A stretch of DNA of 64,000 nucleotides, taken from Bacillus weihaiensis. Its GTDB lineage: Bacteria; Bacillota; Bacilli; Bacillales; Bacillaceae. Below the pieces are notes generated by a model, which searched no databases, was not told the DNA's origin, and saw nothing but the letters and a program-made list of their open reading frames with translations. Made by a program: the position numbers and the translations under genes. The stretch covers positions 1,834,501 through 1,898,500 of the forward strand of contig NZ_CP016020.1 in assembly GCF_001889165.1 (NCBI RefSeq), read 5' to 3'. Positions 47,575 through 56,608 of this stretch are shown piece after piece (the first letter of the stretch is position 1; the number at the start of each line of letters is the position of its first letter).

Positions 47575-48008
47575 GATTTTCGAACGATCAATCGGTTTCG
47601 ATCTGATCGTATGAAAGACATTATCTATCAAGTCTTCTTTTCAATTGTAGAGTTACTACGTGAAAAAGGATTGGTAAAGCTGGGGCACTATTTTGTTGAT
47701 GGGACTAAGATAGAAGCAAATGCAAATCAATATACATTTGTTTGGAGAAAAGCGACAGAAAAATACGAAAAAAGATTCGTGAACGTCTTCAGAGTGAAGA
47801 AGGACGAAAATTATATAGCCAACGAACATGTGATGTAGAAAGTGTATTTGGACAAATAAAACATAATCAGCAGTTCAGACGCTTTTCAATTCGTGGCCTC
47901 CAAAAAAATACGATTGAATGGGGGCTTCTTTGCGTTGCACATAACTGTAAAAAAATGCAGAAAACAATAAAAAGAACGAAAGAAAAAGAGGAAAATGGAA
48001 ACCAATAA
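47575..48008 (+). pseudogene. IS1182-family transposase remnant, internal deletion and frameshift
   Basis: The first part reads FRTINRFRSDRMKDIIYQVF and then LGHYFVDGTKIEANANQYTF, the well-known N-terminal region of IS1182-type transposases. The frame then shifts, and the next part reads RERLQSEEGRKLYSQRTCDV, ESVFGQIKHNQQFRRFSIRG and EWGLLCVAHNCKKMQ, the C-terminal end. The middle (most of the DDE domain) and the very start are missing, so it cannot work. A short scrap of the same tail occurs at 9385-9460. Confidence 0.85.
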
Positions 48009-51917: not shown

Positions 51918-52268
51918 ATGATTGATGTGAACATATTAGAACAAATTTTCAAAAATTGTTGGTCAATAGATTCTAGTTCAAAATGGACAAAAGAGAATCC
52001 AGCTAATGGACAATGTGGTGTTACATCACTAGTTTTACATGATTTATACGGAGGTGATATTGTGAAAACATGGACAAATGACGGTTGGCATTTTTACCTA
52101 TACATAAATGGTGATCGTATTGATTTAACCAAGTCTCAATTCCGTGAACCAATTGACTACCGTGATAATCCTTCCTCTAGGGAAGAAGCTTTTTTAGATA
52201 CAAACATGGAGCAATATCGATATTTAAAGGGTTCAGTGTTGACAAAGATAGTCAACTTTTTTTCATGA
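51918..52268 (+). CDS. YunG-family protein
   Basis: The 116-residue protein matches Bacillus YunG: SSKWTKENPANGQCGVTSLV at about residues 20-40, then HDLYGGDIVKTW, HFYLYINGDRIDLTKSQF and a C-terminal RYLKGSVLTK. The GQCG...T, H..LY and D.T order resembles a papain-like Cys-His-Asp arrangement, so a peptidase or transglutaminase-like fold is conceivable, but this is inference. Its 3' end contains a terminator hairpin. Confidence 0.82.
   Translation: MIDVNILEQIFKNCWSIDSSSKWTKENPANGQCGVTSLVLHDLYGGDIVKTWTNDGWHFYLYINGDRIDLTKSQFREPIDYRDNPSSREEAFLDTNMEQYRYLKGSVLTKIVNFFS
52239..52264 (+). terminator. Terminator overlapping the 3' end of yunG-like gene
   Basis: GTTGAC and GTCAAC pair around AAAGATA, followed by TTTTTTT. 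The stem lies within the last codons. Confidence 0.65.
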
Positions 52269-52323
52269 GTATATGGTCCACTACTCAAAACTAGTAAAAA
52301 TAAACTATTTCCTTTGTAAAATA

Positions 52324-52352
52324 TTGACACAAAACCCATATATGGTTAATAT
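52324..52352 (+). promoter_or_regulatory. SigA-type promoter of the HMA2 cluster
   Basis: TTGACA (52324-52329) and TAATAT (52347-52352) are 17 nt apart, an optimal vegetative promoter. Transcription should start near 52359, so the coding start must lie after that point, at 52372 or 52387. Confidence 0.7.
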
Positions 52353-52386
52353 TAGTAAAAATATAATATTTATGGGTGATGATGGG

Positions 52387-52683
52387 TTGTTAACTAAAAT
52401 TAAAAATACACTTGTACATACTAAAATTGAAAAACTACTTAAAAAATATGAAATAATAGTTAAACATTATTTACCTGGAAGAATTCGTCTTGGTTTTTCA
52501 GAATGGGAAGAAAAATCTGAAAGCGTTATAACTATGTTAGATGAATTAAGAAAAGATCCAGATATCTATTCTATAGAATTTACAAAAGAAACGGGATCAG
52601 TTCTTATTCTTTTTAATAAAGAGGAGATGAATAATCGATCGACTCTAGAACGATGGCTTAGAACAATTGAAAAGTATGCGTAA
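52387..52683 (+). CDS. HMA2-type domain protein, first gene of metal cluster
   Basis: This 98-residue soluble protein consists of a basic helix (KIEKLLKKYEI) and one domain opening with VKHYLPGRIRLGFSEWEE and ending in a strand SVLILFNKEEM, the fold order of ferredoxin-like heavy-metal-associated domains but without the CxxC metal site. The same LPGRIRL signature recurs in three genes downstream. The start is TTG 52387, 6 nt after GGTGAT; ATG 52372 is the alternative. The next gene follows by 18 nt. I infer a part in metal handling from the cluster. Confidence 0.75.
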   Translation: MLTKIKNTLVHTKIEKLLKKYEIIVKHYLPGRIRLGFSEWEEKSESVITMLDELRKDPDIYSIEFTKETGSVLILFNKEEMNNRSTLERWLRTIEKYA

Positions 52684-52701
52684 GAACAAGGGGTTTTTGT
52701 T

Positions 52702-53223
52702 ATGATTCAATCGATCTTAACCTTTGGTGCTTCATTTCTAGCGCCAAAGCTTATGGCAGGAATTCAAAATGAAAAGGTACAAGTATTACATGCGTTACCT
52801 GGTAGAGTACGGTTACAATGTGATCGCTGGAAGAACAATTATACTGCAACAAATTTAGAGAAAGCATTTAAGACTATACCACTTGTAACGGATGTAAGGG
52901 CATCGCCTATTACAGGGAGTTTATTATTAACTTTTGCCACACAAAAACTTACTCCAGAACAATTTGACAATATTGTAAAAAGTGCTGTACAAGTCTCTGT
53001 AGCCTCTTATCCTGAATTGCAGGCTGATTTAATGAATATTCTCAAAAATGTCATTCAAACAATAGATGTTACGATGAAAAAACAAACAGGTGGAAAAGTT
53101 GATATAGATTCCTTACTTTCTGTCGTATTAATGATAAATGGGATCTTGAAATTTCCTGCACAACCAGCTTTTTCGAGTAGTTTACTTTACTGGGCATACA
53201 CAATTATTACAAAGAAAAAGTGA
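52702..53223 (+). CDS. HMA2-type domain protein with C-terminal hydrophobic segment
   Basis: The 173-residue protein has a short hydrophobic N-terminus (IQSILTFGASFLAPKLMAGI), an HMA2-type domain from VLHALPGRVRLQCDRWKNN to SLLLTFATQK, a helical middle (LMNILKNVIQTIDVTMKK) and a C-terminal hydrophobic part (DSLLSVVLMINGILKF; SLLYWAYTIITKKK). No CxxC is present. AAGGGG lies 9 nt before its ATG. The domain is a paralogue of those at 52387, 53493 and 55588. A 270-nt gap then separates it from the ATPase. Confidence 0.75.
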   Translation: MIQSILTFGASFLAPKLMAGIQNEKVQVLHALPGRVRLQCDRWKNNYTATNLEKAFKTIPLVTDVRASPITGSLLLTFATQKLTPEQFDNIVKSAVQVSVASYPELQADLMNILKNVIQTIDVTMKKQTGGKVDIDSLLSVVLMINGILKFPAQPAFSSSLLYWAYTIITKKK

Positions 53224-53393
53224 TTGTTAAAAATATTGCTAAAAGGAAATGGTGCATTTTTTTTCATATTGTTGATTGTTAAAAAGGACTTCTGTAATTG
53301 AATTTTCTAAAAAGAGGTAGGTGGATACAGAATCAATGCTTGTTAAGGAAGTAAACAAACAAGTTTATAGACCTTCATGCTAAAGAATATAAG

Positions 53394-53409
53394 TTGAAGA
53401 ATACTTCAA
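53394..53409. promoter_or_regulatory. Short dyad in the gap before the P-type ATPase
   Basis: TTGAAG and CTTCAA flank AATA about 85 nt before the ATPase start. TTGATTGTTAAAAA also occurs at 53271, and nearly the same at 53221. These may be control sites of the ATPase gene; no known metal-regulator box was recognised. The rest of the 53224-53492 gap shows nothing. Confidence 0.3.
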
Positions 53410-53492
53410 GATTTAACACAATATCCATATAAAAAGGTGTAATACGTTTCGTGGAATTAAGCATTAAGAAGAAAATATGAAGGGATTATCCT

Positions 53493-55682
53493 ATGAGGAA
53501 TGTTTGTAAAGTTATTCATTCAATACCTGGCAGAACAAGAATAAAAATTAATCAATGTCCTTATAATCCAAATGAAATTGAAGCAAGATTAAGATCTATT
53601 CCGGGAATTACTTCGGCAACATATTCACAGATTACACAAAATGCTTTAGTGTATCATAGCTCCAGTCAATTACAATCTATGAGTCTTGCTTATTTACAAT
53701 CTTTATTTAATCGTAGAGAAGAAGTTGCGTTGTCGTCGGGATTAAAGGATAAAGAAGGATTCAATGAAATCAAGAAGCAGGCTAAAGAAGTTGGGTTTGT
53801 TTTAGCTACACTTCTACTTGAAAAGTTATTACTATCAACATCACCGACAACAATGTTAAAGCTAATTACACCATCATCAATTGCTGTTTTAATCGCTTCA
53901 AGGAAAACAATTAGAACAGGGTTGTCTTCTATATTTAATCCAAATCCTGAAACTTTGACTACAGCTGCTCTTATTGCATCGCTACTAAAGGGTAGTCCTC
54001 AATCAGCACTAGTTATCTATTTTATGTCCACAATAAGTGAAATTTTAACAGAATACACAATGAACCGAACTCGTGGTTATGTGAAAGAAATGATGGAAAT
54101 TGATACACCGTTTGCCTGGTTAATGACCGAAGAGGGTCATGAAGTGAAAGTGCCTACAAATCAAGTAAGAATTGGCGATAAAATTATAGCATTTCAGGGA
54201 GAGAAAATTCCATTTGATGGGACCGTATTATCTTATTCAGCACAGGTTGACCAGTCTTCTATTACTGGGGAATACCAACCAGCTCATGTAATAAGTGGTC
54301 ATTATGTGTATGCAGGAAGCATCATCACAGAAGGGAAAATTGTCATTGAGGTTGATAAGATTGGTGAAGACTTAGCCGTCAATCGAATGATTAAACTTAT
54401 TGAAGAAGCCCAAGACAAACAAGCACCTATTCAAATGATGTCTGATCGATTTACTCGAAAGGTCGTACCTATCTCATTTGCCATGGCAGCATTAATATTC
54501 ATCGTTACAAAAGATTGGAATCGTGTATTGAACATGCTAGTCATTGATTATGTGTGTGGCGTGAAGCTATCAACTGCTACAGCTATCTCAGCTTCAATTG
54601 GTAAAGCTGCAAGAAAGGGGGTACTCATTAAAGGCGGGCAAACCCTTGAAACATTAGCTAAGGTAAATACGGTTATTTTTGATAAAACGGGTACGATTAC
54701 TGAGGGAAGACCAATCGTTACAAATATTCAAACATTTAATGGCTATTCTGAACAGGAAATATTAGGGCTAGCAGCTTCAGCAGAAGAACATTCTTCTCAT
54801 CCAATTGCTGAGGCAATTACCTTAGAGGCAAAATCTAGAGCAATTGACATTCCAGAACACGACGATGAAACCCTTGAAAATATTATTGGTAAAGGCATTT
54901 CCGTTCTAGTGCAGAAGGAAAAGGTAATTGTCGGAAGTCGAAGCTTTATGGAAGACAATGAAATTACAATTGATACAACTGAAACAACAGGAGTATATGT
55001 TGCGAAAGAAGAGCAATTAATTGGCATTATCGAGATTGAAGACCAGGTACGGCAAGGGATGAATCGTTGTATGAATCAAATGCGCCGACACGGGATTGAC
55101 GAAGTTATTATGCTTACAGGAGATTATAAGCAATCAGCGAAAAATATAGCAAATCGTACTTCAATAGATGAATATATTGCTGAAGCAATGCCACAAGAAA
55201 AAGCAAGCTTTGTACGATTCCTAAAGAAAGAAAAAGATCGAACAATCATGATGGTTGGAGACGGAATTAATGATGCACCTGCCCTTGCGTATGCGGACAT
55301 TGGTGTTACGTTAGGTGCGAAAAAGACGGATATTGCAATTGAAACAGCAGATGTTGTGATTCATTCAGATAATCCTTTACTACTCTCCGATGTTGTTAGA
55401 CTATCTCAACAAACAATGAATACGATCAAGCAAAATGTTCTAGCAACTCTCATCATTAATACAGCAGCTATCGCGTTAGGCACTTTTGGAAGGATTCAGC
55501 CTATTACAGGTGCAGCCATTCATAATGCCGCAACGATTGGCGTCGTCTTGAATAGCGCAAAATTAATTGTAACGGGAGGAAGAATGAATGTATTTCAAAT
55601 ACAAAATCATTCACTTAATACCAGGAAGAATAAGACTAACAGTCCCGGCATTAGCGAACACAAGCGAGTATTCAGCTATTGA
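53493..55682 (+). CDS. P-type ATPase with N-terminal HMA2-type domain
   Basis: The 729-residue pump has an HMA2-type domain at residues 1-75 (VIHSIPGRTRIKINQCPYN), membrane helices, an A domain with DQSSITGEYQPAHV, the P domain DKTGTITEGRPIV (phospho-Asp near residue 397), TGDYKQSAKNIA, MVGDGINDAPALAYADIG and two last helices. It belongs to the heavy-metal P1B type. The membrane metal motif is not CPC/SPC/TPC but VCGVKLSTATA (Cys near residue 355), without proline, so the metal cannot be assigned. The last 32 residues overlap the next gene in another frame. Transition-metal export or loading of an iron compartment are candidates. Confidence 0.88.
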   Translation: MRNVCKVIHSIPGRTRIKINQCPYNPNEIEARLRSIPGITSATYSQITQNALVYHSSSQLQSMSLAYLQSLFNRREEVALSSGLKDKEGFNEIKKQAKEVGFVLATLLLEKLLLSTSPTTMLKLITPSSIAVLIASRKTIRTGLSSIFNPNPETLTTAALIASLLKGSPQSALVIYFMSTISEILTEYTMNRTRGYVKEMMEIDTPFAWLMTEEGHEVKVPTNQVRIGDKIIAFQGEKIPFDGTVLSYSAQVDQSSITGEYQPAHVISGHYVYAGSIITEGKIVIEVDKIGEDLAVNRMIKLIEEAQDKQAPIQMMSDRFTRKVVPISFAMAALIFIVTKDWNRVLNMLVIDYVCGVKLSTATAISASIGKAARKGVLIKGGQTLETLAKVNTVIFDKTGTITEGRPIVTNIQTFNGYSEQEILGLAASAEEHSSHPIAEAITLEAKSRAIDIPEHDDETLENIIGKGISVLVQKEKVIVGSRSFMEDNEITIDTTETTGVYVAKEEQLIGIIEIEDQVRQGMNRCMNQMRRHGIDEVIMLTGDYKQSAKNIANRTSIDEYIAEAMPQEKASFVRFLKKEKDRTIMMVGDGINDAPALAYADIGVTLGAKKTDIAIETADVVIHSDNPLLLSDVVRLSQQTMNTIKQNVLATLIINTAAIALGTFGRIQPITGAAIHNAATIGVVLNSAKLIVTGGRMNVFQIQNHSLNTRKNKTNSPGISEHKRVFSY

Positions 55683-56160
55683 AGAGATGTTTGAATCAAT
55701 TAAGGGGATAGAGAACGTAAGAATTGAACCGATCATACAAGGAATGATTATTCACTATAATCAAACTGAATTGAATCATAAGCATGTATTAAGATATATT
55801 AGTCTTTTTTTTCAACAAGCGCAGGCTGATATCCATACATTACTTCCAGGTAGGGAGGAATTGAGGAAGGACTTAATTAGATCCTTTATTTCAGGATCGT
55901 TATTACTGGCTGCTTTTCTTAGAAATAATGTGAAGCATCGACCAGATGCTTTTGATTATTTAGTCGTGATTTCAACTTCATATACGGTCCTATCTCATGG
56001 TGAAAATAAACTAAGTCATCCTGATGTAATTACAGGTATTATTTCAATGTTGTCCCTAGGGGCTCAAAATATATTACAAGTAGCTATGGTAACGTGGGTC
56101 GTAAATTTAATTGAAGTTTTTAATGATATGAGAAGAAGCTCTCAGCTTCTTTATCTATAA
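55588..56160 (+). CDS. HMA2-type domain protein with membrane helices
   Basis: The 190-residue protein starts at ATG 55588, after GGGAGGA, inside the end of the ATPase gene (95-nt overlap, different frame). Its HMA2-type domain opens YKIIHLIPGRIRLTVPALAN and ends MIIHYNQTELNHK; two or three membrane helices follow (SFISGSLLLAAFLR; DYLVVISTSYTVLSHG; DVITGIISMLSLGAQNILQV). It resembles the N-terminal part of the ATPase, as if derived from the same kind of gene. It probably forms a complex with the pump. Confidence 0.8.
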   Translation: MYFKYKIIHLIPGRIRLTVPALANTSEYSAIEEMFESIKGIENVRIEPIIQGMIIHYNQTELNHKHVLRYISLFFQQAQADIHTLLPGREELRKDLIRSFISGSLLLAAFLRNNVKHRPDAFDYLVVISTSYTVLSHGENKLSHPDVITGIISMLSLGAQNILQVAMVTWVVNLIEVFNDMRRSSQLLYL

Positions 56161-56191
56161 ATATTTCTACTAATATAGGGGGAAAATAATC

Positions 56192-56422
56192 ATGACTTTT
56201 AACAAAGATTTTTTAATGGGATTTGTATCTGGAACAGTAGTTGGGGCGGTAGGATACCGTTTGTATGAACAAAACAGTGGTCAATTACAAAACTTAATTC
56301 AACAGGGTGCTCCGCAGCTAAGCTTTACTCCTAATAAAGCGGAACCAAGCGTTGAAGATTTAGTCTCTCAAAAAGAAAGATTAGAAGATTTAATTGCGGA
56401 AAAGCAAAGTTCTTCAAATTAA
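56192..56422 (+). CDS. Small single-helix protein of the metal cluster
   Basis: The 76-residue protein has one glycine-rich membrane helix (MGFVSGTVVGAVGYRLYE) near the N-terminus and a soluble tail with a helix EDLVSQKERLEDLIAEKQ. The Gly-zipper helix plus tail recalls the small PacL proteins that accompany P1B ATPases in mycobacteria, but the His/Asp metal motif of PacL is absent. ATG follows TAGGGGGA. It ends the cluster, with a terminator behind it. Confidence 0.7.
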   Translation: MTFNKDFLMGFVSGTVVGAVGYRLYEQNSGQLQNLIQQGAPQLSFTPNKAEPSVEDLVSQKERLEDLIAEKQSSSN

Positions 56423-56454
56423 TAGTATATTGAACTGGAAATAAGCTAAATAAG

Positions 56455-56487
56455 AAAAAACGACTAATCTAAGTGTTAGTCGTTTTT
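56455..56487. terminator. Bidirectional terminator after metal cluster
   Basis: AAAAAACGACTAA and TTAGTCGTTTTT pair perfectly around an 8-nt loop. Confidence 0.85.
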
Positions 56488-56608
56488 CGCTATTAAATAA
56501 AGGTCTTTTTTTTATATGCATTGTAATATTCATCCATCAAGAGAAGCTTCTATTCGAGCTAGCTCTTCATAGAAGGATTAAACGACTTGATTTACACTTA
56601 AGTAAGGA

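Follow-up and report, generated by a model that had tools for sequence, protein, structure and literature searches.

The 64,000-nucleotide stretch of Bacillus weihaiensis DNA analyzed here (the window; contig NZ_CP016020.1, positions 1,834,501 to 1,898,500) contains five open reading frames (ORF1-ORF5) on the forward strand, all found at the positions given in an initial annotation made from the letters of the sequence, and they form an apparent single transcription unit (52324-56488). This five-gene set is a conserved operon of Bacillaceae, Negativicutes, and Succinivibrionaceae, comprising a P1B-6-like ATPase (ORF3), the HMA_2 proteins ORF1, ORF2, and ORF4, and the small glycine-zipper protein ORF5. 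We consider it moderately probable that its products form a platform for metal handling in the membrane, similar in type to a ferrosome or effluxosome; Fe(II) is the first candidate substrate and Mn(II) the second. This reading builds on computed domain homology, conserved gene order, the class and clade of the pump, linkage to neighboring genes, the metal ligands of neighboring binding proteins, and an enrichment of Fur-like boxes.

Homology of the HMA_2 domains

The Pfam HMA_2 family (PF19991, curated cut-off 30 bits) matched ORF1 (52387..52683, 98 amino acids, TTG start; 35.3 bits), which consists of this domain only, ORF2 (52702..53223, 173 amino acids; 83.8 bits, near full length), and ORF4 (55588..56160, 190 amino acids; 43.3 bits). 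The N-terminus of the ATPase (ORF3, 53493..55682, 729 amino acids; domain at residues 2-66) reached 24.2 bits, which is under the cut-off, yet it is related to the other copies by profile-profile comparison, in which the ATPase rows had been preselected for carrying the PGRxR motif. The probabilities obtained were 99.3% for ORF1-ORF2 (E-value 2e-20), 98.4% for ORF4-ATPase (E-value 5e-15), 98.3% for ORF2-ORF4, and 98.1% for both ORF2-ATPase and ORF1-ATPase, compared with 0.07% for the negative control, ORF5-ATPase. Of the 172 window ORFs of at least 50 amino acids, exactly four, ORF1-ORF4, carry the motif H-x-[LI]-PGR-x-R-[LI], and all four HMA_2 matches in the source genome lie within the cluster. 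At the level of sequence comparison, we regard the homology of the four domains as settled, in agreement with the initial annotation, which had read one domain in four neighboring proteins, one of them fused to a P1B-type ATPase.

The CxxC metal site of canonical HMA domains (PF00403) is absent from all four window domains, as had been noted before, and a motif scan of the related loci found it in 0/84 ORF1, 1/94 ORF2, 1/47 ORF4, and 0/89 ATPase N-termini. Cysteine is missing altogether from ORF1, ORF4, and ORF5, and ORF2 contains one. The R-x-R part of the motif is invariant in 137/137 aligned domains (30 ORF1, 65 ORF2, and 42 ORF4 sequences); 33 further ATPase rows, which were chosen for this feature, share it. 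In these alignments, the conserved residues of the domain are arginines, not thiols. It is possible, although we lean away from this explanation, that the HMA_2 proteins bind no metal and that the paired arginines serve them as a site for phosphate, phospholipid, or polyphosphate, anchoring or regulating the pump, which would fit either direction of transport. The invariance of R-x-R and the scarcity of cysteine are consistent with such a role, as is the description of ferrosomes as iron- and phosphorus-rich in the title of one paper; the invariant histidine and acidic residues of ORF4 described below, in contrast, could bind metal.

Class and clade of the ATPase

ORF3 scored 527 bits against TIGR01525 (heavy metal; cut-off 346), which bears out the earlier assignment to P1B-type ATPases, and also passed the cut-off of TIGR01512 ("cadmium family"). 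The P-type catalytic motifs DKTGT (residues 397-401; 54681..54695), TGE, and GDGINDAP are present. In the cluster ATPases, the consensus D-x-x-C-G-x-[KQT]-L-[SA]-T replaces CPC in the fourth transmembrane helix (TM4; VCGVKLST in ORF3, residues 354-361, 54552..54575), and TM6 contains HN (IHNAATIGVVLNS in ORF3, residues 676-688, 55518..55556); C355, G356, H677, and N678 are conserved at 97% or above over 89 ATPases. According to one study, HN in TM6 is a feature of P1B6 ATPases, and P1B1 and P1B2 ATPases typically have CPC in TM4 (PMC9374683). With HN in TM6 and no CPC in TM4, ORF3 is P1B-6-like by its motifs.

A FastTree phylogeny of 56 sequences unites the cluster ATPases in a single clade (46/46, support 0.98), which is sister to four ATPases adjoining DUF6110 genes (50/50, support 0.999), while two CPC-bearing HMA_2 ATPases and four other P-type ATPases fall outside this grouping. 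DUF6110 was present in 5/299 genomes; five DUF6110 loci from four genomes were inspected, four of which have a P1B-6-type ATPase alongside, with none called at L173. Other P-type ATPases, not belonging to this cluster, were met through HMA_2 matches at L080, L083, and L084, two of them with CPC and HN and the others of about 1,500 amino acids. In Bacillus sp. T33-2 (L099:6309-8444), the ATPase lies in three overlapping frames, reflecting decay or a sequencing error.

Partner proteins ORF2, ORF4, and ORF5

AlphaFold models of ORF2 (mean predicted local distance difference test score, pLDDT, 84.8; predicted template modeling score, pTM, 0.56) and ORF4 (mean pLDDT 74.0, pTM 0.43, with the first 80 residues confident) both consist of a beta-beta-alpha-beta-beta-alpha unit, predicted to be ferredoxin-like, followed by a block of helices. 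Structure prediction, which had been suggested as a check on the shared domain, shows the same unit in both proteins. A search for relatives of ORF2 among solved structures gave none that were convincing. The stand-alone proteins had been taken for carrier domains, a description too narrow for ORF2 and ORF4, because the models add the helix block and the conserved residues are arginines. In the helical part of ORF4, alignment of relatives identified invariant H137, H144, D146, W170, N173, and E176, which constitute a candidate metal or interaction site. We also considered whether ORF4 copies the whole N-terminal half of the ATPase; the HMA_2 part of this relation is certain, the remainder suggestive, since the helical part without HMA_2 scored 16.0 against the ATPase, compared with up to 14.7 in six shuffles.

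ORF5 (56192..56422, 76 amino acids) is the small one-helix, glycine-zipper protein recognized earlier: its single transmembrane helix has the pattern G-x3-G-x3-G-x2-GY, with G10, G14, G18, and G21 invariant in 14/14 sequences, its conserved tail is QKExLEDxIA, and it is encoded beside a P1B ATPase. ORF5 matched no Pfam or NCBIfam family above the cut-off, so that it defines a small-protein family without an entry at that level, and neither ORF5 nor seven relatives matched DUF1490 in Pfam. ORF5 had no Pfam match to DUF6110 (PF19605), and the window's genome contains no DUF6110 match. Profile-profile comparison over the glycine-zipper helix indicated a weak relation to DUF6110 (probability 42%, E-value 2.7e-4, 22 columns); the score was 25.5, and none of 20 column shuffles exceeded 13.0. 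A C-terminal metal-binding motif is lacking, because ORF5 contains neither histidine nor cysteine.

Gene order and distribution

An HMA_2 match over the cut-off was found in 47/398 genomes of the phylum. From this listing, 20 regions were fetched, 15 of which (L065-L079) had been chosen for strong HMA_2 matches; all 15 have ORF5-, ORF1-, ORF2-, and ATPase-like genes, though they were found by HMA_2 rather than ORF5, and the remaining five (L080-L084) do not represent the cluster. An ORF5 profile run against named genomes yielded 146 relatives, the best 80 of which include Bacillaceae, other Bacilli, Negativicutes, and Succinivibrionaceae. The complete set of 98 loci includes the window (L035), one duplicate (L109, of L033), and a pair with identical stretches (L132 and L133). 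Only the 15 found by HMA_2 are independent with respect to ORF5 linkage, because loci share ancestry and 80 were selected by ORF5.

The comparison of genome neighborhoods, also suggested with the initial annotation, revealed a conserved gene order. The order ORF1-2-3-4-5 is found in 40 loci, ORF5-1-2-3 in 26, and ORF1-2-3-5 in 12, the other 20 being variants, extra copies, or truncated contigs. Two stand-alone HMA_2 proteins, ORF1 and ORF2, are the rule (89/98 loci) and the third, ORF4, is present in 47/98, so that the set of three, first thought unusual, belongs to a conserved operon. Extra HMA_2 genes lie around some ORF5-first clusters (L073:4897-5379, L076:4675-5166, and L075:9053-9637), two of them directly behind the ATPase gene, and may be counterparts of ORF4. 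In Succinivibrionaceae-type loci (L123, L124, L128, L130, L136, L137, L139, L142, L143, and L159), the first ORF5-like match is followed by another, weak one (19-31 bits), and a YibE/F-family gene lies upstream of the ORF5-first cluster, in divergent orientation, in L145, L146, L147, L150, L161, and L078.

Within its GTDB family, the cluster is sporadic, as 3/80 genomes carry it (that of the window, G065, and G078). It also occurs on plasmids: 20 plasmid records matched the ATPase at E-values of 1e-100 or below, 14 of them from Priestia, with approximately 43% identity in the 12 listed. Plasmid pBM400 of the laboratory strain Priestia megaterium QM B1551 (L176, 5129-8955) has all five genes (BMQ_RS25875-25895), each with a match to the corresponding profile (91 to 1013 bits); three carry the annotation "HMA2 domain-containing protein", one "cation-translocating P-type ATPase", and one "hypothetical protein". 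The pBM400 cluster is preceded by an element resembling insertion sequence (IS) IS256 and a TIGR03943 protein/permease pair, and may be a mobile form.

Neighboring metal importers and regulatory sites

Ten family representatives scanned with Pfam identified the recurrent neighbors of the cluster as FeoB, FeoA, a ZnuA-family binding protein with ATP-binding cassette type 3 (ABC-3) permeases, ZIP, FecCD, and DtxR-type repressors. Linkage was counted at the 92 loci whose ATPase is intact, using profiles built from genes found within 6 kb. Of these loci, 21 have FeoB, an ABC-3 permease, or ZIP within 3 kb of the cluster, a distance for which 345 flank bins of 1.5 kb were covered. Farther out, a few ORFs for permeases and binding proteins occur at 3-4.5 kb, and the 142 bins at 4.5-9 kb contain no member of the three families. 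Within 3 kb, all FeoB (9/9), FeoA (9/9), permease (16/16), and binding-protein (10/10) ORFs are on the cluster strand, with a lower share for DtxR (2/4). In whole genomes, FeoB adjoins the cluster in 4/19, that is, 4/25 FeoB genes compared with 0.09 expected (P 2.8e-6, or 1.2e-4 with one genus counted once), in a test devised after FeoB had been noticed in those same loci.

The neighboring binding proteins share the ligand set H-H-E-D in 12/12 aligned sequences, one of them from an ORF5-only locus (L122), with a 13th, much longer member (L121) dropped for length. In such binding proteins, a glutamate ligand in place of histidine marks Mn/Fe over Zn, and by their ligands the neighbors are of the Mn/Fe type. 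Because of this ligand set and the linkage to FeoB, MntABC-type, and ZIP importers, the data point to Fe(II)/Mn(II). The initial suggestion that iron or another metal is moved or stored is therefore retained with Fe/Mn favored, and the accompanying statement that the metal cannot be told from sequence is not, since importer linkage and binding-protein ligands narrow the choice.

The same evidence bears on the function implied by generic annotation, namely that a P1B ATPase and its accessory proteins confer resistance to Zn/Cd/Pb or Cu. The two TIGR cut-offs passed by ORF3 are in line with it, and a sporadic occurrence that extends to plasmids fits resistance genes, but TM4 without CPC, HMA_2 domains without CxxC, binding proteins with glutamate instead of the Zn-type histidine, and a clade apart from six other P-type ATPases make resistance to these metals highly improbable.

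Fur-like sites (at least 12/14 positions) were found in 12/94 upstream regions, compared with 2/470 shuffles; by group, 11/53 non-Bacilli regions contain one. MntR boxes were weakly represented (6/94 versus 9/470 shuffles), and three of the six are an identical 15-mer in Neobacillus loci. PerR and Zur boxes showed no enrichment in the upstream regions. The scan ran from the starts of the longest ORFs; the true upstream region of the window was rescanned, and other loci with over-long starts stand as first scanned.

Comparison with known systems

We agree with the initial annotation that the ferrosome and PacL-CtpC systems are the nearest described ones. The Fez proteins include FezB, a P-type ATPase of the metal-transporting class. 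The ferrosome (fez) clusters of Desulfovibrio magneticus, Rhodopseudomonas palustris, and Clostridioides difficile resemble the operon in combining such an ATPase with small membrane partners. A review describes C. difficile FezA and FezB as Fur-repressed (PMC12574912), and some relatives of the operon are preceded by Fur-like boxes. The fez genes have the locus tags CD630_05910-05920 in C. difficile and RPA2333-2338 in R. palustris (PMC11651100; PMC12016538). The operon differs in having three extra HMA_2 proteins. None of the five genes encodes a FezC of the D. magneticus type (DUF4405-like cytochrome); the suggested profile search upheld the HMA_2 assignment of ORF1, ORF2, and ORF4, left the ATPase copy at 24.2 bits below the cut-off, and gave no FezC-type domain. 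FezC may not be universal, because the published description of fez in C. difficile names FezA and FezB.

The mycobacterial PacL1-CtpC effluxosome likewise pairs a small one-helix protein with a glycine motif with an ATPase having HN in TM6 (PMC9374683; PMC13043812). Unlike PacL, ORF5 has no C-terminal metal-binding motif and no DUF1490, and unlike CtpC, which has CPC, the ORF3 ATPase lacks it. The pairs of DUF6110 and P1B-6 ATPases in Firmicutes, whose ATPases form the sister clade, share HN with the cluster ATPases and have an N-terminal GR-x-R in two of four cases; at one such locus (L172), a DtxR-like gene and FeoA-like genes were identified nearby by eye. Their TM4 reads D[FY]SCAxKL[AS][MT]P, compared with CGxKLSTATA here, and no extra HMA_2 genes were called next to them. 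ORF1, ORF2, and ORF4 are members of HMA_2 (PF19991), or "HMA2 domain-containing protein", a family name that is an annotation with no function recorded. The component families are known, and in what was searched the operon as a system is apparently undescribed: none of the literature matches listed describes it, the primary ferrosome papers lying outside the search, so that overlap with their fez clusters is possible.

Proposed function and mechanism

We infer the substrate, the direction of transport, complex formation, and the compartment as follows. The ORF3 pump would move a divalent metal out of the cytosol, either to a store or to the cell exterior, along a path formed by the TM4 site, with Cys-Gly instead of Cys-Pro-Cys, and the conserved HN of TM6. 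The CxxC-free HMA_2 versions (ORF1, ORF2, ORF4, and in Bacilli also the N-terminus of the pump) may dock the partners onto the pump or next to it, the helices of ORF4 could add a further metal site, and the glycine zipper of ORF5 may gather pumps into membrane clusters, the role that PacL has for CtpC. Since relatives of the operon are co-directional with Fe/Mn importers and some have Fur-like boxes, loading of a ferrosome-like store or balancing of uptake appears likelier than stress-induced detoxification.

We consider it rather unlikely that the system simply exports Fe(II)/Mn(II) across the cell membrane for detoxification, with pumps clustered like those of mycobacterial effluxosomes and without an internal compartment. 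Such a function would agree with the resemblance of the ORF5 helix to PacL-like DUF6110 (probability 42%, E-value 2.7e-4), and two reports describe PacL clustering via conserved transmembrane glycines and DUF6110 proteins co-encoded with P1B6 ATPases (PMC9374683; PMC13043812). The co-directional importers and Fur-like boxes, in contrast, suggest expression under metal scarcity, and no Mn or NiCo riboswitch was found in the window region (E-values up to 0.1) or, at the gathering threshold, in 17 scanned loci, which also disposes of riboswitch control as a candidate there. A more specific proposal, that in Bacilli the products of the operon form a membrane-enclosed compartment storing Mn(II)/Fe(II), a Mn or mixed counterpart of the ferrosome in which MntABC-type import feeds the pump and the HMA_2 proteins and ORF5 shape the store, seems improbable to us.

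Several observations weigh against a metal-handling platform of the ferrosome/effluxosome type. The ATPase's own PGRxR motif is found in 39/39 Bacilli ATPases and 2/50 others, so that by sequence it is apparently lost or changed in the pump N-terminus outside Bacilli, and docking on the pump's own domain therefore cannot be general, a point that lowers our confidence slightly. Importer linkage is limited, as in 71/92 loci FeoB, ABC-3, and ZIP genes are all missing from the nearest 3 kb and ZIP is on the cluster strand in 1/4 cases; the window itself has no metal-import neighbor, and a FeoB search of its genome, G065, and G078 gave no match. Fur-like sites are scarce in Bacilli (1/41 upstream regions), region 52140-52420 of the window has no operator match above 10 (best Fur 10/14, MntR 10/15), and a k-mer search for a common Bacilli operator gave mainly Shine-Dalgarno-like words, from which none emerged. 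DUF4405 matches occur in 10/19 cluster-bearing genomes, near the cluster in 0/19 and not at all in the genome of the window, and ferritin-superfamily genes are present in 8/8 genomes tested, in two of them at weak scores alone.

With a platform of this kind, the annotated but functionally unnamed HMA2 domain-containing family would be tied to Fe/Mn homeostasis. P. megaterium with pBM400 offers a tractable host for asking about ferrosome-like storage in Bacilli, and the same host bears on what CxxC-free HMA_2 domains do for the pump.

Gene boundaries and transcription unit

The 5' limit of the unit is set by a terminator-like hairpin (52238..52256, forward strand) located 3' of the upstream gene, which is of the yunG family by its Pfam match. 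The longest ORF1 reading frame opens at 52273, and a sigma-A-type promoter-like site, TTGACA-17-TAATAT (10/12; 52324..52352, forward strand), falls inside it; because of this placement, and because a Rossellomorea homolog has the same 98-amino-acid length and the same start, TTG 52387 is the better start, as originally given. The placement of the promoter is tentative, since the region has 16 promoter-like sites compared with a shuffle mean of 19.4, that is, no excess over shuffles. A terminator-like hairpin of 13 pairs (56455..56488, assigned to the reverse strand by the scan) closes the unit.

ORF2 and ORF3 are separated by a 269-nucleotide spacer (53224..53492), unlike most fetched relatives, in which the two genes abut or overlap; gaps also occur in a few Succinivibrionaceae-type loci. 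A repeat element was ruled out, as the spacer is single copy in the genome. ORF3 and ORF4 overlap by 95 nucleotides; a programmed frameshift from ORF3 to ORF4 was rejected, and the overlap is taken as ordinary because overlaps of varied length are common in relatives. Purifying selection is apparent on all five genes relative to the Rossellomorea copy (L086), with 0.16-0.42 nonsynonymous substitutions per site (dN) and synonymous values (dS) of 1.5 or saturated. Elsewhere in the window, a short ORF at 47742-48008 resembles, by eye, the end of an IS transposase.

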